Assembly: GCA_011033025.1 (NCBI GenBank) | Contig: WFMF01000115.1 | Coordinates: 372,001-436,000, forward strand | Origin: Beroe forskalii | Taxonomy: Eukaryota > Ctenophora > Nuda > Beroida > Beroidae | Length of the DNA stretch: 64,000 nucleotides | Reading direction: 5' to 3' | Shown here: one piece after another, positions 24,152 through 59,078 of the stretch | How positions within the stretch are numbered: position 1 is the stretch's first letter | How the letters are laid out: every line of letters starts with the position of its first letter | Notes under the pieces: model-generated | What the model was told of the DNA's origin: nothing | Seen by the model: only the letters and a program-made list of their open reading frames with translations | The model's database searches: none | Made by a program: the position numbers and the translations under genes

Positions 24152-24569
24152 AACAGAGCGTGGTAAGGAGTGTTAAAATACCTTTCAACAAAGACCAGAC
24201 TCTGGAAGTGAGGACTAACTCTGGAGACGGAAGTGGGGACTATATGCGGGTTCTTCCAGGACGATAATGGGAATGTTGCGGGAGGTTTCTTTGTTTACTT
24301 CCAACAAACTCCCTCCTACTGGGTGCGTTATTGCTTCAACAGTTACAAACCACTGCCAGACAACCTTCCTAAAGAGCAGAACAAGTTGTGGAGGATAAAG
24401 AGGACAGACAAGGGACTGAAAGTCACCTGTAACGGTGTGACAGTCCTTGATGCGGTACTCAGTGAACAGCTTTGTGGTTACAGTGATTGGAGTATTGTCT
24501 GGAGCAGAGAGATATCTCAGTTTTACTTTAGTAGTATCGATACAGCCTCCATCTCCTACAGAATCACGG
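24152..24569 (+). CDS. Hypervariable W-S-R-E-I domain exon (left arm), with a 2-nt frameshift
   Basis: Large exon after CCAACCCACAG. It encodes E-Q-S-V-V-R, T-L-E-V-R-T-N-S-G-D-G-S-G-D, then F-Q-Q-T-P-S-Y, P-L-P-D-N-L-P-K-E-Q-N-K-L-W-R-I-K-R, V-T-C-N-G-V-T-V-L-D-A-V-L, W-S-I-V-W-S-R-E-I-S-Q-F-Y-F and A-S-I-S-Y-R-I. From memory, similar L-W-R-I / C-N / W-S-R-x-(I/V) domains occur in uncharacterised cnidarian and sponge secreted proteins; I cannot name the family. The exon is 418 nt, whereas the intact paralogues are 423 and 417. A 2-nt deletion near 24,247-24,249 (CGGGTTCTTC instead of CGGGTGTTCTTC) breaks the frame, so this copy is null or carries a sequencing error. A weak donor (ACGG|GTTAAT) overlaps an in-frame TAA, so the protein could end here or continue. 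Confidence 0.72.
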
Positions 24570-24574
24570 GTTAA

Positions 24575-25288
24575 TGTTTGCAGTGACTGATTACATAATT
24601 TTACCCCGATTGAGGATTGTACAATGATTACTCTTGGAAATCGCAGAATACTTTTATTCTGAAATCACTGGATTTTACGACCGTTTATTTCCCTCTCTAA
24701 CCTGCAGCCTGCATAGCTACGTTTACAAGCAAGTTACGGGAAAATGACCAATTCTGAGTGAATTTTGCACTACGTACTTGTGATTAAAATTTTCAAAACC
24801 GCTTAAACGGGGGTCCTTTTTAAGTGTACCTTGAAAATTGCTATTGTCTCCTACTTGTTAGGTTCTGCTGAGTAGTTAGGTTCTGCTAAGTGACGTTCAA
24901 CTCAGACCTAGTCGGCCTGACCTGCTTATTATTGCACCGAGTTTTATAAATCTAAGCAATAGCTTAAAATCAATAGCCTAAAATTTTGATTTTCTCGTCA
25001 CAGCTGCTGCCACCCACCCGCCACCATTCACCCTCCCTTGACACCACTCAATCACTCATATTTAAACACCGCTCCATCCTTCACTCTCAGCTGACGTCGA
25101 CAATCACACGATTTTCGAAAGCTTCTCATTACAGTTTTCTCGTATTAGTTATTTCGTTTGAACTTCTATTCAATCCCTTGCAGCCTAAAATTAAGCTAGT
25201 GATTATGTGTCTAATCGTAATCGTTGCTACACAAGTCTGCTCTTCTGTCAATCTTCTGCTTCTGTTTTGCACTTTGAATTCCTCTCAG
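24575..25288. other. Intron with a dispersed repeat shared three times in the window
   Basis: No first-half Ig exon was found here, although the next exon is an Ig second half. The segment about 24,985-25,150 (with TTGACACCACTCA, TCAGCTGACG and CGATTTTCGAAAGCTTC) recurs at about 46,440-46,610 (reverse, right-arm partner) and, more divergently, at about 51,930-52,110. It is a dispersed repeat of unknown type. Confidence 0.45.
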
Positions 25289-25420
25289 AGCCCCAGCCAA
25301 GCAGCACCCTCAGTGTTGCTCTGAGTGGAGACCCGATGGAGTTGGACGGGGCAAAGTATCGATGTGCCCTCACTGTGAATGGAAAGATCGCGACACATAT
25401 CACACAACTCAGAATACTGG
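25289..25420 (+). CDS. Receptor gene (left arm), Ig second-half exon
   Basis: 132-nt exon, phase 1 to 1, acceptor CCTCTCAG, donor GG|GTAAGC. Encodes S-S-T-L-S-V-A-L-S-G-D-P-M-E-L-D-G-A-K-Y-R-C-A-L-T-V then I-T-Q-L-R-I-L: the E, F (Y-x-C) and G strands of an Ig domain. The companion first-half exon with the B-strand Cys and Trp is not visible upstream in either arm, so the domain is incomplete or that exon has been lost. The right-arm copy (46,178-46,309) is almost identical and intact. Confidence 0.7.
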
Positions 25421-25707
25421 GTAAGCGTTTTACTAAGGGAGCCCAGTCGGTAAGGTTTATAACAGAGTTTTATCTTTTGAAATGACTGAGTTATGATAAT
25501 ATGATCCACTGTGGGTATGTTCGAATTAGAATTGCGCACGAGGCGTAGCCGATTGTAACATTCTATTACTCTATTAACTTCATGCTAACTGCTAAGTGTA
25601 AACGTAACCCGTGTGAGGGTGCAATATCACAAACAATTATTGTGTTCCTTCAAACACCCCAAAATGGGCTCATATTCTACTCTGCTTCGTCATAATACCT
25701 TCTCCAG

Positions 25708-26207
25708 GCGTGACATTGACCACTAACAATACAGCACTTTATTCTGGACAAAGTGTAGCGGTACAAAGCAGCCCTTATGTAGACTACGGTATCATGCCTC
25801 GGTGGGAATGGTACAAAGCAAGCGACCCCAGTGGGGTACTTTCTACTGGTGATGTGCTAGTGATTGACTCTGTGAGGGTTAGTATAAAGCGGGGTACAGT
25901 CTACTAGTGATTGACTCACTAATTTTTGATAACATACCATATTCGTATATTCGGCTTATTGAAAAATGAATTTTAAAAAGTACTTGGTGAATTAGTTAGT
26001 GATGAAGTGCTGGAATAAAACGCTGTCCCATTCTAAGATAAATCAAAGGTCTAAACGTTTTATGTTTCGTGTCAAAAGTAGTTTTCCCTTCTTATCAGGT
26101 AGCAGATAACACTACATACAGTATCAAAGCGTTTTTTGAAGTTTCAACAGCGGATGGTGAATCCGAGGTCATGGAAACTGGCGATCAAATTATTCTTGGA
26201 GTCAAAC
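25708..26207 (+). CDS. Receptor gene (left arm), cysteine-less Ig-like domain, two exons
   Basis: Exon 25,708-25,877 (170 nt, phase 1 to 0) encodes A-L-Y-S-G-Q-S-V-A-V-Q-S-S-P-Y and R-W-E-W-Y-K-A-S-D. Exon 26,099-26,207 (109 nt, phase 0 to 1) encodes V-A-D-N-T-T-Y-S-I-K-A-F-F-E-V-S and ends I-I-L-G-V-K at C|GTGAGT. Exon layout, W-Y-K and the D-x-x-x-Y pattern suit an Ig domain. The B-strand Cys is replaced by Ser/Gln and the F-strand Cys by Ile/Lys, so the usual disulphide is absent. The right-arm copy (44,160-44,654) shows the same loss. Confidence 0.68.
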
Positions 26208-26750
26208 GTGAGTACAGATTTCAAATTTACCACCAAAAAACACGGAATCCCGTTTTTAGAATTCATTTTTCACTGCTGTGATTCAGATTTGGGAGTTATC
26301 CTGTATCGCTCATTAATTCGTAAAAGAAAGCAATCAATAATTGGGAAGTTTGAGGTGTTAACTGATAAAGCTATCATTTCATTTTTGACTATTGAACTGA
26401 ATTAGCCATCAGGTAGCAGCTGACACTGGAAGAACACATGTCATAAGTAATTTCGTTGTCATTGACCGACCAATTGTGTGCATATGCATACCTCACGATT
26501 TATACTTTCTACCCGAATTCACAAATTTGAAAGCAAAACCATTGACCCATAAAGCTATCAATTTTCCGCGGGAAAATAGTGTCTTTGCCGCGGGCGCACA
26601 GACATATTCATGATTACCTCTGCGCGCTACGCACATTTATGTGACTGATTTGCATGTAGAATTGTCTCTAATGTAGCTGCATATCGCCAGTCAAATAGTC
26701 CTGTAAATCATCTAATATCTGCTTTTGAACAGCAAGCTGTGGATTAACAG

Positions 26751-27044
26751 GGGCTAAACTGAATATGAAGGATCGCCAAAGCATCCCAGAATTGGTGCCG
26801 AATGGTTGGACTATGGAGATTCCATGCCTGGTTGGTATACGGTCTTTTAGCACTTTATTTTAATAGTTTTATCACTCCATTTGATCAACAAGTTCAACTT
26901 CTGGGAATCCTCCCAATTTCCACATTGTAACTCAGCATTCCCTACAGGATGGTTTCATGCTGGCCGATGATTCGCACAACACTTCGCAGATTGTATCATG
27001 CGATTCTAGTGATTACGTGGAGATTGATGTCATGAATTGCATTG
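26751..27044 (+). CDS. Receptor gene (left arm), cysteine-containing module, two exons (possibly CCP-like)
   Basis: Exon 26,751-26,830 (80 nt, phase 1 to 0) after GATTAACAG encodes L-V-P-N-G-W-T-M-E-I-P-C-L. Exon 26,948-27,044 (97 nt, phase 0 to 1) encodes D-G-F-M-L-A-D-D then Q-I-V-S-C-D-S-S-D-Y-V and M-N-C-I. The spaced Cys residues, P-N-G-W and G-F-x-L recall part of a complement-control (sushi) module, but a full four-Cys pattern is not clear. Both exons are conserved in the right arm at identical lengths (43,488-43,567; 43,274-43,370), which supports coding function. Confidence 0.55.
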
Positions 27045-27372
27045 GTAAATAGTGAGTGTGTGACCCACAATTACTTGATTCACTTTAACCCTCAGCCTCA
27101 TAGCAAGTGAAGGGGCTTTTTAAGGACGAGTTTCTTCAGGTGACGTAACCTCCTACCTTGCTCACATAATACGGGCGGTGGTGTATGTTTTTACTTTTTG
27201 AGTGCTGTTTAGTGTGAAGTGATGCAGTGGCATTGAAGCCATTTTTGCTAAGGACACATGCCTTGATTGGCATTTCTATGCGATTGTGGTATTGACTTTT
27301 CATGATTACTGTATTCATTATATCATGTTTCAAAACCCTTATGGGTACCCCACCATGGATTCAAAACAAACA

Positions 27373-28054
27373 AAAATAAACGTTACAAAGGTAAAGCGCT
27401 GTAACTTTGGTTATGTTTGGAGTTTCTTAATGAAACTGTGCGGTATGTACGATAATTTTGCACCAAAAATTTGAAATGTCTACCTACTTCGAAAAATGTT
27501 CGAGTTATCATCGAAAAACCGGTTTTACTTGCCTAATCTCAGCTTCTGAAGGTGCTCCAGGATCATTTTGACCACATATTGCCCGTAATGTCCTGAAGAT
27601 TTCATTCGGAAAAACCTCGGAGATATGCGCCTTTTTTAACGCAAAAAAGTGTGTATACGCAAGCTTTTACACACTCTGCAGATGAAAAGTAAACAAACAC
27701 GGTGCTTATTTACATATTTAGACATGTAAAACTATGAAAGCTTGCATAATGTAACCTTTAATTGTGCTTTATGTACACTTTTTGCGATACAAAAAGGCGC
27801 ATATCTCCGAGGTTTTTTTGAATGAAATTTTTATGGGCAATATGTGTTCAAAATGATCCTGGAGTACCTTCAGAAGCTGAGATATGGCAAATGAACCGTT
27901 TTTTTCGATGATAACTCTAACATTTTTGAGGTACACATTTCAAATTTGGGGTGCAAAATTGTATCGTACTACGACATGGACATCCCAAAGTTTCATTAAG
28001 AAGCTCCAAATATAACCAAAGTTACAGCGCTTTACTTTTTGTTACGTTCATTTT
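27373..28054. mobile_element. Palindromic element with inverted arms of about 330 bp (left arm)
   Basis: The left half (GTAAAGCGCTGTAACTTTGG onward) is mirrored by the right half (CCAAAGTTACAGCGCTTTAC). The arms include CTCAGCTTCTGAAGG and ATATCTCCGAGGTTTTT and enclose a centre of about 100 bp. Present at the matching site in the right arm (about 42,267-42,948). No coding capacity. Confidence 0.65.
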
Positions 28055-28198
28055 GACCGGTACATTCATCCTCATCATCATTTGAGTTTGCTAACCCCTC
28101 TCTTTCATTAGTCTGACATTACATGTTGTAATTTGACTTTATGTTATATTTCTATATTTCTATTTCATAACTAAAGATGTATGCCGATATATGGGTAT

Positions 28199-28358
28199 CA
28201 TAGCTTCATCCCTTCCATAAGAAAGGGGGATGAAGGTTTTCTGCCAGATAAGGTAGGTGGGGGGGGGGTTGCCCTGATTTCAATGATTCAGGGGGAATTG
28301 GACAGAAGGGGGAATGAAAAAATTAAGGGGGGGGGATTGGACCCGGGATGAAGCTATG
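28199..28358. mobile_element. MITE with CATAGCTTCATCCC ends and GGTAT duplication (left arm)
   Basis: Inverted termini CATAGCTTCATCCC and GGGATGAAGCTATG, flanked by GGTAT direct repeats (28,194-28,198 and 28,359-28,363). G-rich interior. The same insertion with the same duplication is at 41,949-42,099 in the right arm. Confidence 0.65.
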
Positions 28359-28379
28359 GGTATGAATAAGATTTGATGT

Positions 28380-29265
28380 TAACGTAGATATGACCGGCTG
28401 TCAAAGGTAGGTTGGAAGTACAGTTACTCCCCTGGCTCGAAGCCAAGCAACATGACCCCTCACATATCGTCTGAGGGGTATCAGTCACGAGTTGCGGATA
28501 TGTTTACAGTTCGAAGTAGTGGAGGAAGATATAGATACTTGAGTTACAGTCTGGCTAGAATATATTCTCCATTTGGGTAATGGACCCCAATGGTCCAAGC
28601 ATATCATCTGCCTGAAAAATCCTTCACCGAAAATGCCAGACCTTTTTGTGGAGATGAATTTGGCCGAACGTTCTCTTCTACTATCTTAGTTTTGGTGGTT
28701 TGCCAGGACTTGAAGTGGATTACCCTGAACTTGAAACTGGTGTGATCTATATTCCATAGTATGGGCTTGATACTGATAGTGAGTTATGAGTTTTGCTAAG
28801 GTGTGACAAAACCACTGTCCATTTTAAGTAATCCAATCAATAACTGATGATTTGCGCAATAAAGCAATAACTGAAGCTTCACTGAAATTATTTCAGACTT
28901 CAGAGTTTGAACTTTGGGTGCCCCTAGGGGGTTTTGATTCAATGGCTCACTTTATTTGTAATCATTGCTGAGTTTGTACCTTTTCTTATCTCACTGACCG
29001 ACATGGCAAAGGCCAAATTTATCAAAAAGAGGAACGGACATTTGATTTACTCTCACGACACTTTATCTCTTAATATTTCAACTCCTAGGTAGATATCACT
29101 GGCTGACGTGATCACATAGAGTACACTTCCAAGGAACACAACATTGCCCTCGTATCATGGTAGAATAGTGGTAGTATCCTCAAAGATCGGGTGAAGATCC
29201 GACCGATGAATTGTAATTTGCCGCGGAGTCTCCAAGATTCCTTACCCCCCAGGTTCATGCTCACT
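28380..29265. other. Intron, no exon seen
   Basis: Alignable with the right arm (about 41,040-41,930). No acceptor, open frame and donor combination is conserved between arms here. Confidence 0.4.
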
Positions 29266-29269
29266 GAGT

Positions 29270-29575
29270 GTCATACCGCACAGCACAGTGGTGTCATACC
29301 GCACAGCACAGTGGTGCCATGTGGTGTCATACCGCACAGCACAGTGGTGTCATGTGGTGTCATACCGCACAGCACAGTGGTGTCATGTGGTGTCATACCG
29401 CACAGCACTGTGGTGTCATACCGCACAGCACAGTGGTGTCATGTGGTGTCATACCGCACAGCACTGTGGTGTCATACCGCACAGCACAGTGGTGTCATAC
29501 CGCACAGCACTGTGGTGTCATGTGGTGTCATACCGCACAGCACTGTGGTGTCATGGGGTGTCATACCGCACAGTA
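29270..29575. repeat. GTGTCATACCGCACAGCACA minisatellite next to an exon (left arm)
   Basis: About 13 units of GTCATACCGCACAGCACAGT and variants, ending about 40 bp before the exon at 29,616. The right-arm counterpart (40,680-41,030) has different copy number and order. ORFs through it are repeat translations. Confidence 0.8.
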
Positions 29576-29615
29576 CTGTGGTGGAACGGGGCTGTTCTGG
29601 TGGTGGATAGTACAG

Positions 29616-29698
29616 GCTCTAACTGAGGGACACGTTCCAAACTCACTGCTCCGGAACACCACCCTCCCCTCCGAGAGTGACAACTCCTTCTCGTGCAG
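29616..29698 (+). CDS. Receptor gene (left arm), Ig half-domain exon with F-strand Cys
   Basis: 83-nt exon after GATAGTACAG, phase 0 in and phase 2 out (TGC AG|GTGTGT). Encodes H-V-P-N-S-L-L-R-N-T-T-L-P-S-E-S-D-N-S-F-S-C-R, typical of the E-F strands of an Ig domain. Conserved in the right arm at 40,557-40,639. The first half of this domain was not found; it may lie within the region now occupied by the minisatellite. Confidence 0.58.
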
Positions 29699-29699
29699 G

Positions 29700-29975
29700 T
29701 GTGTGACACCGACTTGACACCAGTCTACCCTGACATCAACTTGACACCAATCCACACTGACATCAACTTGACACCAGTCTACCCTGACATCAACTTGACA
29801 CCAGCCTATCCTGACACCAGTCTACCCTGACACCAGTCTACCCTGACAACAACTTGACACCAGTTTACCCTGACACCAACTTGACACCAGTCTTCCCTGA
29901 CAACAACTTGGCACATGTCTACCTTGACACCCGTCTATCCTGACACCAGTCTGTTCTGGCACTAGGTTACCCTGA
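29700..29975. repeat. TGACACCAGTCTACCC minisatellite starting at a splice donor (left arm)
   Basis: Tandem units (TGACACCAGTCTACCC, CATCAACT variants) begin directly after the GTGTGT donor of the preceding exon. The right-arm homology stops inside this array, at 40,423 (left 29,859). Confidence 0.75.
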
Positions 29976-35864: not shown

Positions 35865-38800
35865 AGATCTTCATAGGTTCGTGATATGTGATAGAGATTT
35901 TCATGACGAATCAGATGGTACCAAGCTTTTTGAAATTGACCGTCATTTAACCCCTGGAAATTTGGTTTTTAGTTCATTCCAATTATCTCCTTATAAGGGG
36001 ATAATTAGTACACCTCTGTACGGGAGGAGGACTCGCTCACTCGAGATGATCTAATTAGCCTGTCTGTGATAGCGCAGAGGGAGAGTTTCCGGTTTCAGTT
36101 CGAAACACAGTGCTGCTTGTCATCCCCCGGCTAATGATCAGCGGGGCTAATATGATTACGCACATCAATATAGCATTAAGCTCAATCACCATTCCCATCA
36201 ATGGGAAACTGAAAGCTTTACTTCTGTGTGTATTGGTAATGGTATATGTAATCAATTTACATTCACACACAGCGCCTGGCGGCAATATTGAAAGATTGAA
36301 CGCAGTGAAGAAGGTGAAAACGAGAATCTGTGTTCCACGGAATTTGAAAATTATTCTTTCATAATAAAGATAAGATAGTAAACTAGTAAAGTCTAACAAA
36401 AATTTAATTTCAGTCCATAATATCTTCTCGTTTGTACAGTTAATATAAAATCTTAAGAATGAATTAGTTCTATCGTTCATCACTAATCTGATCGTTGATC
36501 ACGATGATATGGTTCGAAATTTAAAACAAAATCTAAGACTGTCGAGCATGATCCACTGAATGATCATGAAATTTATTTATAGTCATCGAGACATCCATAT
36601 TTTCCATGGAATTTGAAATCAAATAAGTATAACAGAATTTTGATTCCTTATTCGGATAGGATATCTATTCTTTTAGTTTTCCTATTTGAATTATCGGTCG
36701 ATGTGCGAATTTACAGGTAGAATTAAAAAATCAATTGCAAATTGTGATACCTACATTGTTTTCTACTAATAGAAACAATATTGTCCAATATTGGATTGTC
36801 CGGTAATTGCTCGTTTGTACGACTACGTGATTTCCCCTCGGAATTAACGTCGGAACGTGATTTCCAACTATATACGTACAAACGTGCATTTACCGGAAAT
36901 CGCGTACAAACGTGCATTTACCGGAAATCGCGTACAAACGTGCATTTACCGGAAATCACGTACAAACGTGCATTTACCGGAAATCACGTACAAACGTGCA
37001 TTTACCGGAAATCACGTACAAACGTGCATTTACCGGAAATCACGTACAAACGTGCATTTACTGGAAATCACGTACAAACGTGCATTCACCGGAAACCACG
37101 CACTAACGTGCATTCACCGGAAATCACGTACTAACGTGCATTTACTGGAAATCACGTACAAACGGAAATCACGTAAAACATGCATCAGAAATCACGTAAA
37201 ACATGCATTTACCGGAAATCACGTACAAACGTGCATTGACCGGAAATCATGTGCAAACGTGCATTTACCGGTAATTGCTCGTTTGTACGTAATTTCCGGT
37301 TAATGCACGTTTGTACGTGATTTCCGGAAAATTCACGTTTGCACATGATTTCCGGTCAATGCACGTTTGTGCGCGATTTCCGGTAAATGCACGATTGTAC
37401 GTGATTTCCAGTAAATGCACGTTTGTACGTGATTTCCGGTAAATGCACGTTTGTACGTGATTTCCGGTAAATGCACGTTTATACGTGATTTCCGGTAAAT
37501 GCACGTTTATACGTGATTTCCGGTAAATGCACGTTTATACGTGATTTCCGGTAAATGCACGTTTGTACGTGATTTCCGGTAAATGCACGTTCGTACGTGA
37601 TTTCCGGTAAATGCATGTTTTACGTGATTTCTGGTAAATGCACGTTTGTACGTGATTTCCGGTAAATGCACGTTTATACGTGATTTCCGGTAAATGCACG
37701 TTTGTACGTGATTTCTGGTAAATGCACGTTTGTACGTGATTTCCAGTAAATGCACGTTTGTACGTGATTCCCGGTAAATGCACGTTTGTACGTGATTTCC
37801 GGTTAATGCATGTTTTACGTGATTTCCGGTAAATGCACGTTTCTACGTGATTTCCGGTAAATGCACGTTTCTACGTGATTTCCGGTAAATGCACGTTTCT
37901 ACGTGATTTCCGGTAAATGCACGTTTCTACGTGATTTCCGGTAAATGCACGTTTGTACGCGATTTTCGGTAAATGCACGTTTGTACGTGATTTCCGGTAA
38001 ATGCACGTTTGTACGTGATTTCCGGTAAATGCACGTTTGTATGTGATTTCCGGTAAATGCACGTTTGTACGTGATTTACGGTATATGCACGTTTGTACGT
38101 GATTTCCGGTAAATGCACGTTTGTACGCGATTTCCGGTAAATGCACGTTTGTACGCGATTTCCGGTAAATGCACGTTTGTACGCGATTTCCGGTAATGCA
38201 CGTTTGTTCGTATATAGTTGGAAATCACGTTCTGACGTTAATTCCGAGGGGAAATCACGTAGTCGTACAAACGAGCAATTACCGGACAATCCAATATTGG
38301 ACAATATTGTTTCTTTTAGTAGAAAACAATGTAGGTATCACAATTCGCAATTGATTTTTAATTTTACCTGTAAATTCGCACATCGACCGATAATTCAAAT
38401 AGGAAAACTAAAAGAATAGATATCCTATCCGAATAAGGAATCAAAATTCTGTTATACTTATTTGATTTCAAATTCCATGGAAAATATGGATGTCTCGATG
38501 ACTATAAATAAATTTCATGATCATTCAGTGTATCATGCTCGACAGTCTTAGATTTTTTTTAAAATTTCGAACCATATCATCGTGATCAACGATCAGATTA
38601 GTGAATGTGATGGACGATAGAACTAATTCATTCTTAAGATTTTATATTAACTGTACAAACGAGAAGATATTATGGACTGAAATTAAATTTTTGTTAGACT
38701 TTACTAGTTTACTATCTTAATATTATGAAAGAATAATTTTCAAATTCCGTGGAACACAGATTCTCGTTTTCACCTTCTTCACTGCGTTCAATCTTTCAAT

Positions 38801-40160: not shown

Positions 40161-40556
40161 ATCTTGAAAACTGACAAAGTTATGGCAATTTTAAGAACAA
40201 AACCTTAAAAAAGACAATCTTCCCAAACACATTTTTTCACGATTTTCTTGTGCCAAATAGATCTTATGATAAGCCATGGATCCTGAAAGTTTCAGAGAAA
40301 AAGGTTCAAAATTGACCAAATTAGCACTACCATTTTGATTTCAGAACTTGAATATTTTATTTCGCGTGAAAAAGCATTACGATGTAGCATTCCGCGCGCG
40401 CAGCGTTCTCGTTCACCCCCTATGTCAAGTTGTTGTCAGGGTAGACTGGTGTCAGGGTAGACTGGTGTCAGGATAGGCTGGTGTAAAGTTGATATCAGGG
40501 TGGATTGGTGTCAAGTTGATGTCAGGGTAGACTGGTGTCAAGTCGGTGTCACACAC

Positions 40557-40639
40557 CTGCACGAGAAGGAGTTGTCACTCTCGGAGGGGAGGGTGGTGTT
40601 CCGGAGCAGTGAGTTTGGAACGTGTCCCTCAGTTAGAGC
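40557..40639 (-). CDS. Receptor gene copy (right arm), Ig half-domain exon
   Basis: Same 83-nt exon as 29,616-29,698 (S-D-N-S-F-S-C-R end), with conserved acceptor and GTGTGT donor. It is the last recognisable exon of this copy; the following intron is cut at 40,423 and no downstream exon is present. Confidence 0.55.
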
Positions 40640-40679
40640 CTGTACTATCCACCACCAGAACAGCCCCGTTCCACCACAG

Positions 40680-41030
40680 TACTGTGCGGTATGACACCGC
40701 ATGACACCACAGTACTTTGCGGTATGACACCACATGACACCACAGTACTGTGCGGTATGACACCACATGACACCACAGTACTGTGCGGTATGACACCACT
40801 GTGCTGTGCGGTATGACACCACACTGCTGTGCGGTATGACATCACATTGCTGTGCTGTATGACACCACAGTACTGTGCGGTATGACACCACATGACACCA
40901 CAGTGCTGTGCGGTATGACACCACTGTGCTGCGCGGTATGACACCACTGTGCTATACGGCATGACACCACAGTGCTGAGCGGTATGACACCATATGACAC
41001 CACTGTGCTGTGCGGTATGACACTCAGTGA
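40680..41030. repeat. GTCATACCGCACAGCACAGT minisatellite (right arm)
   Basis: Counterpart of 29,270-29,575, about 14-15 units with different variants and order. Confidence 0.75.
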
Positions 41031-41948
41031 GCATGAACCTGGGGGGTAAGGAATCTTCGAGACTCCGCGGCAAATTACAATTCATCGGTCGGATCTTCAC
41101 CCGATCTTTGAGGATACTACCACTATTCTACCATGATACGAGGGCAATGTTGTGTTCCTTGGAAGTGTACTCGATGTGATCACGTCAGCCAGTGATATCT
41201 ACCTAGGAGTTGAAATATTAAGAGATAAAGTGTCGTCAGAGTAAATCGCGTGAGATCAAATGTCCGTTCCTCTTTTTGATAAATTTGGCCTTTGCCATGT
41301 CGGTCAGTGAGCTAAGAAAAGGTACAAACTCAGCAATGATTACAAATAAAGTGAGCCATTGAATCAAAACCCCCTAGGGGCACACAAAAGTTCAAACTCT
41401 GAAGTCTGAAATAATTTCAGTGATTAAGCTTCAGTTATTGCTTTATTGCGCAAATCATCAGTTATTGATTGGATCACTTAAAATGGACAGTGGTTTTGTC
41501 ACACCTTAGCAAAACTCATAACTCACTATCAGTATCAAGCCCATACTATGGAATATAGATCACACCAGTTTCAAGTTCAGGGTAATCCACTTCAAGTCCT
41601 GGCAAACCACCAAAACGAAGATAGTAGAAGAGAACGTTCGGCCCAATTCATCTCCACAAAAAGGTGTGGTATTTTCGGTGAAGGATTTTTCAGGCAGATG
41701 ATATGCTTGGGCCATTGGGGTCCATTACCCAAATGGAGAATATATTCTAGCCAGACTGTAACTCAAGTATCTATATCTTCCTCCTCTACTTCGAACTGTA
41801 AACATATCCGCAACTCGTGACTGATACCCCTCAGACGATATGTGAGGGGTCATGTTGCTTGGCTTCGTGCCAGGGGAGTAACTGTACTTTAACAACCTAC
41901 CTTTGACAGCCGTTCATATCTACGTTAACATCAAATCTTATTCATACC

Positions 41949-42099
41949 CATAGCTTCATCCCGGGTCCAATCCCCCCTTAATTTTTCATTCCCCCTTCTG
42001 TCCAATTCCCCCTGAATCATTGAAATCAGGGTACCCCCCACCTACCTTATCTGGCGGAAAACCTTCATCCCCCTTTCTTATGGAAGGGATGAAGCTATG
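41949..42099. mobile_element. MITE with CATAGCTTCATCCC ends (right arm)
   Basis: Same insertion as 28,199-28,358, flanked by ATACC (complement of GGTAT) at 41,944-41,948 and 42,100-42,104. Confidence 0.65.
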
Positions 42100-42266
42100 A
42101 TACCCATATATTGGCATACATCTTTAGTTAAGGTTTTCACCTTATGAAATAGAAATATAGAAATATAACATAAAGTCAAATTACAACATGTAATGTCAGA
42201 CTAATGACTTAATGAAAGAGAGGAGTTAGCAAACTCAAATGATGTTGAGGATGAATGTACCGGTCA

Positions 42267-42948
42267 AAATGAACGTAACAAAAAGTAAAGCGCTGTAACT
42301 TTGGTTATATTTGGAGCTTCTTAATCAAGTTAATGAAACTTTGGGATGTCCATGTCGTAGTACGATACAATTTTGCACCACAAATTTGAAATGTCTACCT
42401 CAAAAATGTTAGAGTTATCATAAAAACGGTTTATTTGCCATATCTCAGCTTCTGAAGGCACTCCAGGATCATTCCGAACACATATTGCCCGCAATGTCCC
42501 AAAAATTTCATTCAAAAAAACCTCGGAGATATGCGCCTTTTTGTATCGCAAAAAGTGTACATAAAGCACAATTAAAGCAAGCTTGCATAGTTTTACATGT
42601 CTAAATATGTTAAAAGCACCGTGTTTGTTTACATTTCATCTGCAGAGTGTGTAAAAGCTTGCGTATACACACTTTTTTGCGTTAAAAAAGGCGCATATCT
42701 CCGAGGTTTTTCCGAATGAAACCTTTAGGACATTACGGGCAATATGTGGTCAAAATGATCCTGGAGCACCTTCAGAAGCTGAGATAAGGCAAGTAAAACC
42801 GGTTTTTCGATGATAACTCGAACATTTTTCGAAGTAGGTAGTCATTTCAAATTTTTGGTGCAAAATTATCGTACATACCGCACAGTTTCATTAAGAAACT
42901 CCAAACATAACCAAAGTTACAGCGCTTTACTTTTGTAACGTTTATTTT
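42267..42948. mobile_element. Palindromic element (right arm copy)
   Basis: Counterpart of 27,373-28,054, same site, inverted arms intact with small indels. Confidence 0.65.
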
Positions 42949-43273
42949 TGTTTGTTTTGAATCCATGGTGGGGTACCCATAAGGGTTTTGAAACATGATA
43001 TAATGAATACAGTAATCATGAAAAGTCAATACCACAATCGCATAGAAATGCCAATCAAGGCATGTGTCCTTAGCAAAAAATGGCTTCAATGCCACTGCAT
43101 CACTTCACACTAAACAGCACTCAAAAAGAAAAACATACACCACCGCCCGTATTATGTGAGCAAGGTAGGAGGTTACGTCACCTGAAAGAACTCGTCCTTA
43201 AAAAGCCCCTTCACTTGCTATGAGGCTGAGGGAAAGTAATCAAGTAATTGTGGGTCACACACTCACTATTTAC

Positions 43274-43567
43274 CAATGCAATTCATGACATCAATCTCCA
43301 CGTAATCACTAGAATCGCATGATACAATCTGCGAAGTGTTGTGCGAATCATCGGCCAGCATGAAACCGTCCTGTAGGGAATGCTGAGTTACAATGTGGAA
43401 ATTGGGAGGATACCCAGAAGTTGAACTTGTTGATCAAATGGAGTGATAAAACTATTAAAATAAAGTGCTAAAAGACCGTATACCAACCAGGCATGGAATC
43501 TCCATAGTCCAACCATTCGGCACCAATTCTGGGATGCTTTGGCGATCCTTCATATTCAGTTTAGCCC
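43274..43567 (-). CDS. Receptor gene copy (right arm), cysteine-containing module, two exons
   Basis: Exons 43,488-43,567 (80 nt) and 43,274-43,370 (97 nt) match the left module in length, phase, splice sites and nearly all residues (P-N-G-W-T-M-E-I-P-C-L; Q-I-V-S-C-D-S-S-D-Y-V). See 26,751-27,044. Confidence 0.55.
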
Positions 43568-44159
43568 CTGTTAATCCGCAGCTCGCTGTTCAAAAGCAGA
43601 TATTAGATGATTTACAGGATTATTTGACTGGCGATATGCAGCTACATTATAATGGCGCATATGCAGCAATCAGACATTTAATACATCTAACCGCGCCACG
43701 CACATTTCTGACAAATCTATAGAGTCACACATAAATGTGCGTGGCGCGCAGATGTAATTATGAATATGTCTGTGCGCCCGCGGCAAAGACACCATTTTCC
43801 CGCGGAAAATTAAGCTTTTGGGTCAATGGTTTTGCTTTCAAATTTGTGAATTCGGGTAGAAAGTATAAATCGTGAGGTATGCATATGCACACAATTGGTC
43901 GGTCAATGACAACGAAATTACTTATGACATGTGTTCTTTCAGTGTCAGCTGCTACCTGATGGCTAATTCAGTTCAATAGTCAAAAATGAAATGATAGCTT
44001 TATCAGTTAACACCTCAAACTTCCCAATTATTGATTGCTTTCTTTTACGAATTAATGAGCGATACAGGATAACTCCCAAATCTGAATCACAGCAGTGAAA
44101 AATGAATATTAAAAAAGGGATTCCGTGTTTTTTGGTAGTAAATTTGAAATCTGACTCAC

Positions 44160-44654
44160 GTTTGACTCCAAGAATAATTTGATCACCAGTTTCCATGACC
44201 TTGGATTCACCATCCGCAGTTGAAACTTCAAAAAACGCTTTGACACTGTATGTAGTGCTATCTGCAACCTGATATAAAGGGAAAACTACTTTTGACACGA
44301 AACATAAAACGTTTAGACCTTTGATTTATCTTAGAATGGGACAGCGTTTTATTCCAGCACTTCATCACTAAGTAATTCACCAAGTACTTTTTAAAATTCA
44401 TTTTTCAATAAGCCGAATATACGAATATGGTATGTTATCAAAAATTAGTGAGTCAATCACTAATGTACCCCACTTAATACTAACCCTCACAGAGTCAATC
44501 ACTAGCACATCACTAGTAGAAAGTACCCCACTGGGGTCGCTTGCTTTGTACCATTCCCACCGAGGCATGATACCGTAGTCTACATAAGGGCTGCTTTGAA
44601 CCGCTACACTTTGTCCAGAATAAAGTGCTGTACTGTTAGTGGTCCAAGTCACGC
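44160..44654 (-). CDS. Receptor gene copy (right arm), cysteine-less Ig-like domain, two exons
   Basis: Exons 44,485-44,654 (170 nt) and 44,160-44,268 (109 nt). The few differences from the left copy include Leu/Trp and Asn/Ser in the first strand (V-T-W-T-T-N-S-T) and Gly/Ser in L-S-T-S-D-V. Trp of W-E-W-Y-K is kept and both canonical Cys are absent, as in the left arm. Confidence 0.68.
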
Positions 44655-44754
44655 CTGGAGAAGGTATTATGACGAAGCAGAGTAGAATATGAGCCCATTT
44701 TGGGGTGTTTGAAGGAACACAATAATTGTTTGTGATATTGCACCCTCACACGGG

Positions 44755-45982
44755 GGCACATTACCACTTGTGCCAACCGCCGATTCGGCGCCTATAGGCG
44801 CCGAATCGGCGCCTATAGGCGCCTATAGGCGCCTATAAGTTTTTTTCGGCGCCGATTCGGCGCCTATAGGCGGTGCCGCTTTTCGGCGCCTATAGGCGCC
44901 TATAACTGACATTTTTCATTTTTTCGGCGGTCATCGGCGCCTATAGGCGCCGATAAGCGCCGATAAGCGCCTATGGACCGCCTATCGGCGCTGTCGGCGC
45001 TTTTCGACCGCTTATCGGCGCCTATGTTTCAACCGTCTATAGGCGCCTATAGGCGCCTATAGGCGCCGATACTGTTTCTTCGTCCGATTTTGCGCCGATT
45101 TTGCCTTCTAGCAATCTGTGTTCTTCCGCCTTTTTTCGGCGCCTATAGGCGCCTACAGGCGCCGATGAATTAAAACAGTCCTAAATTGGCGTGCACTTTC
45201 GTTTCACGGTATGTCAGGTTAGGGTTTGGGGTTAGGGTTAAGGTTTGGGTTGGGGTTAGGGTTAGGGTTAGGGCTTGGGTTAGGGTTAGGGTTAGGGTTT
45301 GGGTTAGGGTTAGGGTCTGGGTTTGGGTTTGGGTTTGGGTTTGGGTTAGGGTTTGGGTTAGGGTTTGGGTTAGGGATTGAGTTAACCCTGACTCTAACCC
45401 TAACCCCAACCCTAACCCTAACCCTAACCCTAACCCTAACCCTAATTCAACCCTAACCCCAAGTTTAGCCCTAATCCTGACCCAACGATGTTGCGGGCCA
45501 ATTTAGGACTACTTTAATTCATCGGCGCCTATAGGCGCCTATAGGCGCCTATAGAATTTAGGCCAATGAATATAGGTCATAGACTCGGAGCTCAGCTAAT
45601 AAAACTCATCCTCGCCAGTTCATGACTGTCTTAATTCATCGAAAAAAGAGGAATAGCATAGATTGCTAGAAATCAATATCGGCGCCTATAGGCGCCTATA
45701 GGCGCCGAAATAGAGGCGCCGATAAGCGGTCGAAAAGCGCCGACGGCGCCGATAGGCGGTCCATAGGCGCTTATCGGCGCTTATCGGCGCCTATAGGCGC
45801 CGATGACCGCCGAAAAAATGAAAAATGTCAGTTATAGGCGCCTATAGGCGCCGAAAAGCGGCACCGCCTATAGGCGCCGAATCGGCGCCGAAAAAAACTT
45901 ATAGGCGCCTATAGGCGCCTATAGGCGCCGATTCGGCGCCTATAGGCGCCGAATCGGCGGTTTGCACAAGTGGTAATGTGCC
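44755..45982. mobile_element. Right-arm-specific 1.2-kb element, 8-bp duplication, made of GGCGCCTATA palindromes and telomere-like repeats
   Basis: Inverted ends GGCACATTACCACTTGTGC, flanked by an exact CACACGGG duplication (44,747-44,754; 45,983-45,990). The left arm near 25,610 has a single CACACGGG in the empty site. An 8-bp duplication fits hAT-like elements. The body is dense GGCGCC/TATAGGCGCC palindromes mirrored around a core of TTAGGG-like repeats. No transposase. Confidence 0.85.
45217..45465. repeat. Interstitial telomere-like repeats, TTAGGG then CCCTAA
   Basis: 45,217-45,378 is (TTAGGG)n with TTTGGG variants. About 45,383-45,465 is (CCCTAA)n. The two face each other as at a telomere-telomere fusion, but both lie inside the 44,755-45,982 transposon. 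Confidence 0.85.
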
Positions 45983-46177
45983 CACACGGGTTACGTTTAC
46001 ACTTAGCAGTTAGCATGAAGTTAATAGAGTAATAGAATGTTTCAATCGGCTACGCCTCGTGCGCAATTCTAATTCGAACATACCCACAGTGGATCATATT
46101 ATCATAACTCAGTCATTTCAAAAGATAAAACTCTGTTATAAACCTTATCGACTGGGCTCACTTAGTAAAACGCTTAC

Positions 46178-46309
46178 CCAGTATTCTGAGTTGTGTGATA
46201 TGTGTCGCGATCTTTCCATTCACAGTGAGGGCACATCGATACTTTGCCCCGTCCAACTCCATCGGGTCTCCACTCAGAGCAACACTGAGGGTGCTGCTTG
46301 GCTGGGGCC
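46178..46309 (-). CDS. Receptor gene copy (right arm), Ig second-half exon
   Basis: 132-nt exon identical in layout to 25,289-25,420 (L-D-G-A-K-Y-R-C-A-L-T-V, I-T-Q-L-R-I-L), donor GG|GTAAGC, phase 1 to 1. Confidence 0.7.
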
Positions 46310-47219
46310 CTGAGACAATTCAAAGTGCAAAACAGAAGCAGAAGATTGACAGAAGAGCAGACTTGTGTAGCAACGATTACGATTAGACACATAATCACTA
46401 GCTTAATTTTAGGCTGCAAGGGATTGAAGTTCAAACGAAATAACTAATACGAGAAAACTGTAATGAGAAGCTTTCGAAAATCGTGTGATTGTCGTCGTCA
46501 GCTGAGAGTGAAGGATGGAGCGGTGTTTAAATATGAGTGATTGAGTGGTGTCAAGGGAGGGTGAATGGTGGCGGGTGGTTGGCAGCAGCCAGCAGCTGTG
46601 ACGAGAAAATCAAAATTTTAGGCTATTGATTTTAAGCTATTTTTAGATTTATAAAACTCGGTGCAATAATAAGCAGGTCAGGCCGACTAGGTCTGAGTTG
46701 AACGTCACTTAGGTAATAAGAGATCAGCTTGAACTTTCACTTCCAGCTGATAGTGAATCTAGATAGTCGTGCATCCACACTACTCAGCAGAACCTAACAA
46801 GTATGAGACAATAGCAATTTTCAAGGAAAAAGTCCAGGCCAGGTACACTTAAAAAGGACCCTCCGTTTATTCGATTTTCAAAATTTTAATCACAAGTACG
46901 CAGTGCTTGTAAACTTGGCTATGCCTCAGGCTGGAGGTTGGAGAGGGAAATAAACGGTCGTAAAATTCAGTGATTTCAATAGAAAAGTATTCTGAGATTT
47001 TAAAGAGTAATCATTGCACAACCCCTCAATCGAGATGAAATTATGTAACCAGAGTCACCCTTCAAACATAAAGACAAATCATTCTTATACTTACCTTCTG
47101 TTAATAAATTATTGGGCTCAATTTAGGATCGCAATAACGCGATAATAGATTTGGAATAATTAATTACAGTTAGAATCAAGTTAGAATTATGTCATCAGAG
47201 TCACACTGCAAACATTAAC

Positions 47220-47642
47220 CCGTGATTCTGTAGGAGATGGAGGCTGTCTCATAACCACTAGGAAAGTAAAACTGAGATATCTCTCTGCTCCAGACAATAC
47301 TCCAAGCACTGTGACCACAAAACTGGTCACTGAGTACCGCATCAAGGACTGTCACACCGTTACAGGTGACTTTCAGTCCCTTGTCTGTCCTCTTTATCCT
47401 CCACAACTTGTTCTGCTCTTTAGGAAGGTTGTCTGGCAGTGGTTTCCAACTAGAGCAATAAAACACATAGTAGGAGGGAGTTTGTTGGAAGCTAACAATG
47501 AAACCTCCCGCATCTCTCCCATATTTATTGTCCTGGAAGAACACCTTCATATAGTCCCCACTTCCGTCTCCAGAGTTAGTCCTCACTTCCAGAGTCTGGT
47601 TTTTGTTGAAAGGTATTCTCACATCCCTTACCACGCTCTGTT
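47220..47642 (-). CDS. Hypervariable W-S-R-E-I domain exon (right arm), intact
   Basis: 423 nt (141 codons), intact across the domain. Conserved blocks as in 24,152-24,569. The variable sites read differently: V-V-R-D-V-R-I, G-D-Y-M-K-V-F-F, Q-D-N-K-Y-G-R-D-A-G-G-F-I-V-S-F, Y-Y-V-F-Y-C-S-S-W-K, S-D-Q-F-C-G-H-S-A-W, F-P-S-G-Y-E-T-A. The region from L-P-D through V-L-S is identical at the DNA level to the left copy. The exon either ends at ACGG|GTTAAT or stops at the overlapping TAA. It follows exons 51,599-51,685 and 51,221-51,328 in the same phase. Likely extracellular because the left copy has a signal peptide. Confidence 0.75.
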
Positions 47643-48307
47643 CTGTGGGTTGGAGTAAATTTGGAGGAAAGCACACTGATCCGATGCATTCCTAAGTGAC
47701 AGCACAGTAAGTTCCTAGTGACCACGTCATGTTACGGTGTATAAAAAATCCACAGGCCTGTAATAGCCTCCGGAAGCGGTTTTTTTCAATGTCATAAAGT
47801 CCGCTGAGATATGATGAAATTTCTAGAGACCGAATGGGATCAATTCTGAGAGCTCATAAAGTACGGTGAAAAATAGTAAACTGGTTTCACGGATCGGGCC
47901 GTTGAATAAGACACTTAATTTATTCTATTTCTACTCATTGGTACACGAACAAATGGAAACGATGTGGTTCTTACTTCTTTAATGACAATCAATTTTGTCG
48001 GTCTAGTTTCTACGGCATCTTCAGGTCTCAAATTTGATTGAGTAGTGTTGTAAACTTAAATGAAATTGATTGTCATTAAAAAATCACATCGTTTCCATTT
48101 GTACGTGTACTACCATTGGTCGAGTCAAAAATATAAATGAAGGACTAATGAAAATATAGTTAAAATTTTAAAAAACTGGTTGATGATGGTAGCTTGATCT
48201 GGTTGTTGAACGGAATTTGAGGTATTTTACAGAGTCTGTAAATTGAGAATTGGAGTTGCGATGATATCACAAATCAATGCACGTGCTGCAAAATATTCAT
48301 AATAATA

Positions 48308-50611: not shown

Positions 50612-51220
50612 TATGCTATATAAATGAAATACTTTGTGGATTTTTTATAACCTTTAAAACCTTTCAAGTATTCTTTATGCAGGAAATAAAAGATTCGCTT
50701 CGCTAAAATTTTATTTCATAATTAAATCTAAATGAGTCAATTTCATCTCGTCATTTGATTACATGACATTAAATACCATAAAGAATTACTCTTGTCCCGG
50801 TTTTAGAGCTTATGTAATGACGTAATGTTAACTGGCTAGGCAAGAGGTTTATTCCAACCTGACCGTTTTGTTATCGTGGAGGGTAATGCAAGGCCTGCCC
50901 AGCGTGCTTGAATACAGTAAACTAGAAAAGGAGTAAAAAAGTAAAGAGTTCCGAATTCAGTCCGATCTTCTTCAATTTTCCTCTGTCAATTTTTGATGCC
51001 AATTCTTCAAAAGTCAGCATTTACTTATTGAATCACACAGCAGTACAACCAGAGAAAATAGCATATTTCTGTAGGTATATTGCATAGCAGATTTATTAAA
51101 TATTTCTGAAACTAAAGTAAGGTTATTGGCAAGTCAGGGGTAAGGCAGTGAAAGTGAGAAGAGAAGAAGGCCCTTTAATACGTGCCGTTAAGAATAGGAC
51201 CAGGAGAATTCCCCACTCAC

Positions 51221-55371: not shown

Positions 55372-55740
55372 AAAGTGGTGTCAAAGTTAGTGGTGTCAAA
55401 GTTAATGGTGTCAAAGTTAATGGTTCCAAAGTTAGTGGTGTCAAAATTAGTGGTGTCAAAGTTAATGGTGCAAAAGTTAGTGGTGTCAAAGTTAGTGGTG
55501 TCTAAGTTAATGGTGTCAAAGTTAATGGTGTCAAAGTTAATGGTGTCAAAGTTAATGGTGGCAAAGTTAATGGTGTCAAAGTTAATGGTGTCAAAGTTAA
55601 TGGTGTCAAAGTTAATGGTGTCAAAGGTTATGGTGTCAAAGTCAAAAGTGCGTCAAAGTAAATAGTTTGTCAAAGTAAATAGTGTGTCAAGGTTAATGGT
55701 GTCAAAGTTAATGGTGTCAAAGTAAATGGTGTCACCGTTA
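55372..55740. repeat. 15-bp minisatellite upstream of the Ig2 acceptor
   Basis: About 23 units of GGTGTCAAAGTTAAT. It ends within a few bases of the acceptor CACTTTTCAG at 55,368. The ORF through it (V-S-K-L-M repeats) is an artefact. Confidence 0.82.
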
Positions 55741-56101
55741 CTCTTGCTCTCTTGATAAGTGGTGTCAGGGTGGTAAGGATCTCGACAAAAGTGTATTCCA
55801 ATCTTTCAAAGTTTCAATTAAGATTCGATTTTGCTGCTTTTCCAATAAACTCCTGCGGGAGTCCTGCCTCTTCATCATCCAATCTACTAATCTATTTTCT
55901 TATTTCATAACATCTGTCATCCAGTTCGCCAGAGCTTAACCAGATCTACCCAAGTTAAGAATAGAGGTCGGAATCCATTCTTGGAATTTATTGATAAACT
56001 TGCCGAAGATGCCCGAAGAATGATCACAGAAATGTGGAAGGGAATGTTTTGAAAAATAATGAACTGTGATTGACAAACATGTGACGGTGGTAGGTACTAA
56101 C

Positions 56102-56235
56102 CAACAACTACCACTTGAGTAGAAGCTCTCATCACAATCCCGTCAATTGAAACGTCACAGAAGTAGGAGCTGGCGTCAGACGGACTGACACTATCCAGTT
56201 CCAGCACATTCGATGTGGGGCTGCCCGTGTCAACC
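56102..56235 (-). CDS. Ig1 domain of the right-arm extra block, second exon
   Basis: 134-nt exon, L-E-L-D-S-V-S-P-S-D-A-S-S-Y-F-C-D-V-S-I then T-Q-V-V-V-V, donor G|GTTAGT. Near-identical to 11,166-11,299, with changes such as I-V-M-R-A for N-V-I-T-T in the F-G loop. The intron before it contains two transposons. Confidence 0.75.
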
Positions 56236-56350
56236 CTGCAAGAATTAATGCACATTTAGAGTCAAGAAAGAAAGAAAATACTGAGTTTCTCATTTAAGCG
56301 AATGGGGGCCATGGGGTGAGCAACTTCGATAATTTTATTAGTGGTGTTAA

Positions 56351-57407
56351 GGGGGGGGGGGGGGGCTTCAACCCAAATTTTTTGGAAAACAAGTTTCTGA
56401 GATAATGGTTGACCCAAAAGGTACACCCCTGGGGCCAACTTTTTGGCTGGGTTTGGTACCCCCAGACCCACTGGCGGCGCCGTGCCCAAAAATGGGCCCA
56501 AAATGGGCATATTTTTCAAAAGCAACTTGGGCGGGATCTGAGGTGTGCAATCGATAGATAATGGTCCCCTGAGTTACCATAAAACATTTGAAGTCGATAT
56601 CTCAAAAAATGGCCGAGTTATGGCCGAATAACTTATGCCCATATATGGGCATACGCGCGTTGCGCAAGCCTATTTTGTCCCATAACTTGGTCAAATATCA
56701 ATATTTTTGAATGAAACCAACTTTATTCGATAAATAACGTTAAGTGACGTATTTTCTGCAAGTATGGGGTTGATTGCTGCTAAAATGGCGATTTGAGGTC
56801 CAAAAAACTTCTAAAAAACCACAAAATTGCCATTTTCTCGGTTTGCGGTTTTGCGATAATCGACTTTACATTTTTTTCAATATCTCAGCCGTTTTTCAAT
56901 ATTTTTACATGAAAATTTCAGAATTGCTTCAAAACTAAATTTCGCACTTATTCTATAGACGGATTTTTGATTGAGGTCCCCAAAAAAAATTTTTGGTCCT
57001 CGGACCAAAAATCCGCCGGGATTTTTGGTCCCCATACTTGCAGAGAATAAAGTTGGTTTCATTCAAAAATATTGATATTTGACCAAGTTATGGGACAAAA
57101 TAGGCTTGCGCAACGCGCGTATGCGGATGCCCATATATGGGCATACGTTTTTCGGCCATAACTCGGCCATTTTTTGAGATATCGACTTCAAATTTTTTAT
57201 GGTAACTCAGGGGACCATTATCTATCGACTGTACACCTCAGATCCCGCCCAAGTCGCTTTTGAAAAAATATGCCCATTTTGGGCACGGCGGCGCCAGTGG
57301 GTCTGGGGGTACCAAACCCAGCCAAAAAGTTGGCCCCAGGGGTGTACCTTTTGGGTCAACCATTATCTCAGAAACTTGTTTTCCAAAAAATTTGGGTTGA
57401 ACCCCCC
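56351..57407. mobile_element. Palindromic TTAA-flanked element
   Basis: TTAA at 56,347-56,350 and 57,408-57,411. The lone Ig gene copy (11,050-11,100) shows the empty site with one TTAA. Termini are a G run then CTTCAACCCAAATTTTTT and its complement. Inverted arms of about 400 bp contain GGGGCCAACTTTTTGGCTGG and CCCATATATGGGCATACG. TTAA duplication suggests piggyBac or Kolobok. No ORF. Confidence 0.8.
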
Positions 57408-57451
57408 TTAATGAGGTGACTTTGCTCGTTCTATAATTCTATCATAACGGT

Positions 57452-57592
57452 GGCGTGTCGAACTCATATATGCGCGGCTTTTCAATGCGCGGCGTACTAG
57501 TGCGCGGCTCGCTGCCTGTAATTAACAGGCAGCGAGCCGCGCACGATTACGCCGCGCATGGAAAAGCTGCGCACATATGAGTTCGACACGCC
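57452..57592. mobile_element. 141-bp perfect-hairpin MITE
   Basis: GGCGTGTCGAACTCATAT at one end and ATATGAGTTCGACACGCC at the other, with a GC-rich stem and CTGCCTGTAATTAACAGGCAG at the tip. Absent from the homologous intron at about 10,990-11,030. Confidence 0.7.
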
Positions 57593-57750
57593 CCTGTAAT
57601 ATATAGGCTGTAATGACATAGGCTCTAATGGATTAAGGTCAAATGCATTAAAGGTAATGGATGTTTTTGTTATTAAATTGTTAGTAGAAATTTTGGACAG
57701 TCAATGAATAACTCAGCTGAGGAATGCTGACGAAGTCAGATTAAACCCAC

Positions 57751-57871
57751 CTGATTCGGGAGTCCCCTTTGTACCAGGTAATGGAATCAGGAGGACTTGA
57801 GAAGTCAGAAACTGAGCAAGTCAGAGCACCTGACCCTCCTTCGGCCAGCGTAAAACCAGGCAATTTAATCT
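57751..57871 (-). CDS. Ig1 domain of the right-arm extra block, first exon
   Basis: 121-nt exon after CTATTTTCAG encoding L-A-E-G-G-S-G-A-L-T-C-S-V-S-D-F and I-T-W-Y-K-G-D-S-R-I, donor AG|GTGGGT, phase 1 to 2. Joins in frame with 56,235 (AG|G). Near-identical to 10,761-10,881. Confidence 0.75.
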
Positions 57872-58661
57872 CTGAAAATAGTGAATGTGAGGATACACAA
57901 GTATTTTTTATCTCTCAGGAACCTATAGACCTAGATCTAGATCCCCGTTACGAAAAGATCCGTTATCTCGAATTTCGTTTCAGTTTCACCGCACTTTTGG
58001 AGCTATGGAAACTACGGAGATATGTACTTTCGAAAACTGCAGAGAAGTCCACTAACCACTCTCATTCTTATTCAGTTATTCTTAACAATACTGTTCCACT
58101 TTCAAGGCATAAAAAGAGAACTCAGAACATTGTGATATTAACAAAAAATTTTGGTGATGAGGTACGTCTGTTAAGTTTTCTGAGGCACATCGGAATTTCA
58201 GAGCGTTATACTTCAAGTCATACGGGACTGTTTTCACACAGTTAACATGGACACGAGAAATGTTTGGATCAGTCTTCCATCGAATTTTAAATGGAAAATC
58301 TTGTCATCTTGATTATTTGCACGATATAAATGCTTAATAAATGCGTTCTGGATTGAAATCCCTCGTGAGGGCCTGCCTCTTTTAATAAAAATAATCGTTT
58401 CAATAATCATCGTTGGCAAACTGTTACAAGAATATTATATTGATTAGTAAATATAATTAATGAGTTATCTGAACTTCAAGAATCACCGAAATTTGTTCTG
58501 AATGAAATGTAATAGATCAGTTTAATCATCCAAACGACGCAAAAAATAAAATTTATATGAGTATATGGATAAATCAATGTAAACCTCAAGAGGGGTCAAA
58601 ATAAAAATGCAAGGCAATAATTAATTACAGTTAGAATCAGAGTCACACTGCAAACATTAAC

Positions 58662-59078
58662 CCGTGATTCTGTAGGAGATGGAGGCTGTATCATTACTAT
58701 GGAAGTAAAACTGAGATATCTCTCTGCTCCAGACAATACTCCAATCACTGTAACCACAAAGCTGTTCACTGAGTACCGCATCAAGGACTGTCACACCGTT
58801 ACAGGTGACTTTCAGTCCCTGGTCTGTCCTCTTTATCCTCCACAACTTGTTCTGCTCTTTAGGAAGGTTGTCTGGCAGTGGTTTCCTATTGGAGCAATAA
58901 ACCACATAGTAGGAGGGAGTTTGTTGGAAGGAAACTATGAAACGTCCCGCAACATTCCCATTATCGTCCTGGAAGTACACCCGCATCTCGTCCCCACTTC
59001 CGTCTCCAGAGTTAGTCCTCACTTCCAGAGTCTGGTCTTTTGTTGAAAGGTATAAACACACTCTTACCACGCTCTGTT
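58662..59078 (-). CDS. Third hypervariable W-S-R-E-I domain exon
   Basis: 417 nt (139 codons), open throughout. Variable sites: V-V-R-V-C-L-Y-L-S-T-K (against R-S-V-K-I-P-F-N-K), G-D-E-M-R-V-Y-F, D-D-N-G-N-V-A-G-R-F-I-V-S-F, Y-Y-V-V-Y-C-S-N-R-K, S-E-Q-L-C-G-Y-S-D, F-H-S-N-D-T-A. The first difference is a compensated frameshift: one base lost and one gained over about 30 nt, so the frame recovers. Same acceptor and same GTTAAT/TAA end as the other copies. Followed in phase by Ig1, Ig2 and Ig3. Confidence 0.75.

Follow-up and report, generated by a model that had tools for sequence, protein, structure and literature searches.

A hypervariable exon encoding a predicted galectin-fold domain in receptor-like genes of Beroe forskalii

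The 64,000-nt stretch of the Beroe forskalii genome analysed here (the window; G000:C154:372001-436000, in a genome of 216 Mb and 1134 contigs) carries three copies, A, B, and C, of an exon whose variation is concentrated in a limited set of codons. The exon probably encodes a recognition domain of galectin fold that is under diversifying selection; the genes carrying it would be receptors of an immune or allorecognition type, and they also contain Ig-like and CCP-like exons. The family with its exon structure was established computationally, as were diversifying selection, the predicted fold, an alternation of variable and constant residues, and variation of relatives at the same positions. 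Multiple paralogues show positive selection restricted to particular sites, which is one mark of a diversifying recognition receptor. Rapid change on a likely binding face next to almost unchanged exons would suit a recognition molecule engaged in an arms race or in self/non-self discrimination.

Hypervariable exon copies and diversifying selection

An earlier note on this DNA had recognized three copies of the exon. All lie at the positions it gave, and each is bordered by an AG acceptor and a GT donor:

24152..24569, + strand: copy A, hypervariable exon with the predicted galectin-like domain, frameshifted by a net loss of 2 nt near 24245-24255
47220..47642, - strand: copy B, intact hypervariable exon of 423 nt, with acceptor and donor both in phase 1
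58662..59078, - strand: copy C, hypervariable exon, open; compensated local frameshift near the 5' end

The exon is internal and of phase 1-1, with two codon-completing bases after the AG and a final G before the GT. Alignment of the copies reproduced both the clustering of differences at the spots named in the note and the core of about 115 nt that it had described as identical in A and B; the longest identical stretch of the two spans 119 nt, from AAACCACTGCC to CTCAGTGA. The whole-codon indels it had reported are present as well, but two frame disruptions had been overlooked. Copy A (418 nt, not a multiple of three) is not an open exon as assembled, because its frame is shifted by the net 2-nt deletion right after M-R. 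In copy C, the segment V-R-V-C-L-Y-L-S-T-K results, in comparison with A and B, from the loss of one base and the gain of another; as the two shifts compensate each other, its differences are not substitutions, and seven codons were masked. The flanks of copy C are unlike those of A and B.

In the genome as a whole the family is spread over many contigs: 46 places match at E<=0.001, among them several fragments of one copy, and 45 of the 46 lack an internal stop. Clade 1 comprises A, B, C, L002, L003, L004, and L006, and clade 2 comprises L007-L010 and L013, with L018 (decayed, by eye). Common flanks define class I (A, B, L003 on contig C168, and L002 on contig C184) and class II (C, L004, and L006).

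By the NG86 method, A and B differ by 29.5 nonsynonymous and 3.5 synonymous changes, so that the single clear silent change counted in the note was too low. With about 79% of the sites being nonsynonymous, the excess does not reach significance in this pair taken by itself (p=0.14), nor in the other pairs of window copies (B-C, p=0.22; A-C, p=0.50). The proposal of a hypervariable recognition domain under diversifying selection is therefore not proved by the three window copies alone; with further genome copies, the case is strong. In a purpose-written codon model of 12 copies (with masks at the frameshifts of A and L013 and over the seven codons of C, and without L018), the log-likelihood was -1991.49 under M1a and -1924.38 under M2a, corresponding to a doubled difference (2dlnL) of 134 and a ratio of nonsynonymous to synonymous rates (dN/dS, omega) of 7.7 in 15% of codons. 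The 2dlnL value was 95.9 with the nine intact copies and 83.1 with clade 1; in 40 simulations that assumed M1a and used the nine-copy tree, it did not exceed 4.89. Across the codon-model runs, omega was about 7-10 in 15-21% of codons, well above the values of about 1 or less that the note had listed as speaking against its proposal. The changes in the nine intact copies are codon-coherent and unlike read errors, as judged from the assembly alone.

A comparison free of codon models agrees with this result. In class-I copies, substitutions per aligned site reach 5.8-10.3% in the exon vs 3.1-5.6% in the introns, with the exon higher in 6/6 pairs (p between 2e-5 and 0.013). Each of the four copies enters several pairs, so that the pairs are not independent. 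The exon likewise exceeds the downstream exons e2-e6 of the same genes (listed below), with 31/414 vs 13/603 substitutions between A and B (p=4e-5) and 38/416 vs 9/603 between B and C168 (p=1e-8). The near-identity of neighbouring exons described earlier was borne out by 0/131, 5/170, 6/109, 1/96, and 1/97 substitutions between A and B in e2 to e6; these local alignments omit three end bases, two of which differ between A and B, and the p values were computed without them.

The diversity could also come from targeted hypermutation of the hypervariable codons instead of selection on ordinary mutation. The proportion of synonymous differences (pS) is 0.157 in hypervariable codons vs 0.048 in the framework, the 25 hypervariable columns having been picked partly by eye from the codon table. 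In addition, copy A (24245-24255) and L013 (C778:46645-46947), which belong to different clades, both carry a 2-nt net deletion at one hypervariable codon triplet after M-R, which may be a coincidence, a hotspot, or an assembly error. A selection-only simulation, however, gave a similar silent rate of 0.175 (standard deviation 0.049) in the 25 most variable codons, and a third-position rate of 0.253 vs 0.232 observed. Targeted mutation is therefore not needed, and this explanation appears highly improbable. The ratio test for hypermutation gives only p=0.09, because the simulated framework silent rate of 0.085 (standard deviation 0.019) exceeds the observed one.

The low framework value weakly suggests some homogenization by gene conversion, which the note had proposed as the force keeping the framework uniform. 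The pairwise homoplasy index (PHI) is divided on this point, with p=0.02 at k=3 and 5, but 0.11 at k=8 and 0.29 at k=12. Among the 43 informative sites of clade 1, 48% of pairs are incompatible, which may reflect recombination or repeated change.

Predicted fold and relatives

The AlphaFold2 model of the copy B exon domain is confidently all-beta, with a predicted local distance difference test (pLDDT) score of 90.7, and galectins top both the Foldseek and the VIA structure lists among the best 50 matches listed in each. The model of a second subfamily, represented mainly by metagenome proteins, is likewise matched to galectins among the matches listed. The domain is predicted to have the galectin beta-sandwich (jelly-roll) fold, and other jelly-roll families are possible beyond the best 50 matches. 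A PDB search with a single sequence yielded weak gp41 matches (best E 6e-4); they were lost with a profile and are attributed to chance.

The selected residues alternate with near-invariant hydrophobic residues along three neighbouring strands and occur also in loops. Their same-parity placement on the three strands has a joint P of 0.006 (residue 59 omitted; S5 = 72-76). This is in line with the suggestion in the note that alternate residues vary as on one face of a strand, and the selected sites may occupy one face of a sheet. If the domain is equivalent to galectin strand by strand, this face might lie about where galectins bind sugar, the sugar-binding residues of galectins being located on S4-S6 according to an excerpt of PMC13084444.

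A profile built from 21 copies (B, C, and 19 others among 30 loci) matched 76 metagenome proteins, unlike a homologue search with a single sequence, which found none. The positions variable in the exon family vary also in these metagenome relatives. When metagenome protein P0006 was searched back, its best own-genome match was just 56% identical, so at least one relative comes from another genome. Searches of viral contigs and GTDB genomes with one or two peptide patterns each found no relatives. Among distant members in the same genome, L025 (C869) joins the hypervariable-exon domain to SRCR in a single long open frame, and L019/L021 (C356) contains, also in a single long open frame, the domain twice together with LDLa and a sub-cut-off PAN match.

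Gene models and surroundings of the exon

The hypervariable exon of gene B splices in frame to five exons, e2-e6, all with AG/GT borders, which gives a total of 343 residues. The features of genes A and B are as follows:

46178..46309, - strand: e2 of gene B, Ig-like half (...DGAKYRCALTVNG...), from splice sites and frame; counterparts in A, C168, and C184
44485..44654, - strand: e3 of gene B, judged Ig-like by eye (...MPRWEWYKASD...)
44160..44268, - strand: e4 of gene B, further part of the Ig-like stretch (...DSTTYSVKAFF...)
43488..43585, - strand: e5 of gene B, opening half of a CCP-like unit with four cysteines, by eye
43274..43370, - strand: e6 of gene B, remaining half of this CCP-like unit
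51026..51085, - strand: low-confidence, tentative signal-peptide exon assigned to gene B, with MQYTYRNMLFSLVVLLCDSI preceding a GT of phase 1
25289..25420, + strand: e2 of gene A
25708..25877, + strand: e3 of gene A
26099..26207, + strand: e4 of gene A
26733..26830, + strand: e5 of gene A
26948..27044, + strand: e6 of gene A
23462..29859, + strand: left inner arm of an inverted repeat, holds gene A; self-BLAST, 85-93% identity, paired with 48307-40423
40423..48307, - strand: right inner arm of the inverted repeat, holds gene B; self-BLAST

All five downstream exons of gene B have counterparts in A and C168. Those in C184 comprise e2-e4 and 45 bases of e5, with no e6 in the C184 stretch examined. 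Contig C778 carries relatives of e5 (62% identical) and e6 (72% identical), and the open frame containing e3 is present at A, B, C168, and C184, with a 62% relative on C157. The tentative signal-peptide exon is identical in C184 and was not found in A. Over e2-e4, the Pfam profile Ig_3 reaches E=0.055 (14.4 bits vs a cut-off of 30), the Ig likeness being otherwise judged by eye. The four-cysteine pattern of e5-e6 was also recognized by eye, and, with HMMER filters on, the Sushi/CCP profile gave no match there up to E=5. No SRCR domain was found in the window gene model. A further Ig-like half-domain, DASSYFCDVSIDG, lies at 11179-11301 (+), more than 12 kb from any hypervariable exon; sequences like it occur near the copies L032, L033, L036, and L042.

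The arms belong to a large broken inverted repeat (10753-29859 and 40423-64000) with paired pieces 82-95% identical and tandem repeats at its centre. The repeat could be real or an assembly fold-back, and RPB2-like matches on C170 also form two inverted copies, about 26 kb apart. Assembly error, together with relaxed constraint or pseudogene decay, has therefore to be considered as a source of the exon variation. Copies A and L013 are frameshifted and L018 is pseudogene-like by eye, which points to decay or misassembly in part of the family. Relaxation, however, is expected to raise omega up to 1 rather than to the values of 7-10 estimated here; moreover, the exon diverges more than its introns, the nine intact copies suffice for the signal, and metagenome proteins vary at the same positions. 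These explanations are thus very unlikely to account for the pattern.

The remainder of the window contains a 717-aa open frame at 19394-21547 (-), RNase H- and integrase-like and by eye a Ty3-type retrotransposon, and a UDP-glycosyltransferase-like open frame (by eye) at 1-585 (-), which has an 87% identical stretch on C1024. Very long minisatellite arrays with units of 8/24, 9, and 28 bases occupy 4816-8580, 14770-15430, and 36874-38211, the 28-base array switching strand near 37257. A silicatein fragment used as query yielded 149 matches; the three best of them carry Cys in the active site, and none of these three is a silicatein.

Proposed role and comparison with known systems

The exon would encode a galectin-like jelly-roll domain of about 140 residues, spliced in phase 1-1 before the Ig-like and CCP-like exons and serving as the putative ligand-contact part of a receptor-like protein, presumably secreted or at the cell surface. 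On strands corresponding to S3, S4, and S5 of galectins, and in adjacent loops, selection would repeatedly have exchanged the residues that point outward, while the core and scaffold are kept constant. Gene copies with differing binding faces could then form a germline panel of recognition specificities, whose targets would most likely be microbes or symbionts, or self/non-self markers.

Several observations weigh against this reading. HFNPR and VCN are each absent from the family alignment (0/81 rows), and WGxExR occurs in 1/81 rows; the looser WGxE is found in 33/81, always after strand F4 and never in S6. With HMMER filters on and E values as high as 10 allowed, none of the 21 A1 members matched PF00337, and hhalign against two galectins of the same genome gave probabilities of 1.4% and 2.2%. 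Because canonical motifs and Pfam or hhalign matches are lacking, the link to galectins is one of predicted fold only, and the Foldseek TM-scores (query) are only 0.43-0.61 among the matches listed. The exposure of the selected residues was inferred, not read from the model coordinates. The site-model tests assume no recombination, and recombination among copies, to which the 48% of incompatible site pairs in clade 1 may point, can inflate them. No transmembrane segment or membrane-anchor exon was found in the gene B model, its signal peptide is only tentative, and the two frameshifted copies and the pseudogene-like L018 count on the same side.

One form of the proposed receptor role, an innate multigene panel whose galectin-like face binds varied microbial or symbiont glycans or proteins, has about an even chance of being correct. 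It is consistent with a multi-copy family in one genome whose variable residues differ between copies, with the SRCR, LDLa, and sub-cut-off PAN match of the wider relatives, and with a predicted fold common to lectins, although the sugar-binding motifs of galectins were not found. A less probable alternative is that, in an animal that fuses or forms colonies, polymorphic receptors or ligands serve to distinguish self from non-self. Allorecognition would fit the extreme amino-acid diversity restricted to one exon and the linked inverted copies. It would also fit a block of C184 (~9600-33800) that is collinear with ~61.0-43.5 kb of the window, 77-98% identical by piece and ending at e5, which could be a divergent haplotype or a paralogous block. 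However, the dispersal of the family on many contigs is unlike a single locus.

Diversified receptors are already known in several animal groups. FREPs, VCBPs, Hydractinia Alr, and Botryllus fester and fuhc resemble the genes described here in their Ig or CCP content and in having a diversified recognition region. To our knowledge, none of them has a galectin-fold hypervariable exon, and searches of the open-licence literature on the subject found no galectin-fold exon that serves as a hypervariable unit. Galectins (PF00337, including sponge galectins) share the predicted beta-sandwich, and the selected face would correspond approximately to their sugar-binding S4-S6 (excerpt of PMC13084444). 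They differ in having the HFNPR and VCN motifs, WGxExR in S6, and the Pfam match; moreover, the domain described here is exon-shuffled into Ig/CCP-like genes, and the face that varies in it is conserved in galectins. Tachylectin-2 of the coral Oculina, also a lectin-like protein of an invertebrate, shows positive selection and is proposed to act in immunity, but it has a different fold, and its selection was shown with 244 alleles rather than with paralogues of one genome (excerpt of PMC2880987). The SRCR expansions of sponges and sea urchins are likewise large receptor families proposed as immune repertoires (excerpt of PMC10855680); SRCR itself is a different domain, joined to the present one in L025. 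The sponge aggregation factor is a candidate polymorphic recognition system (excerpt of PMC5450542), with different proteins.

It is possible, though rather doubtful, that an exon-shuffled galectin-fold domain is the hypervariable unit of an animal system of allorecognition or of immune receptors that has not been described before, and that this system is present in several species, with different variants on the haplotypes of the window locus. If real, the system would provide a concrete gene family with named residues for testing specific recognition in invertebrates, and the binding face of a lectin would have become a new basis for diversification, just as the Ig V domain did in vertebrates. 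An old sugar-binding face would then have been turned into a germline-diversified recognition face.

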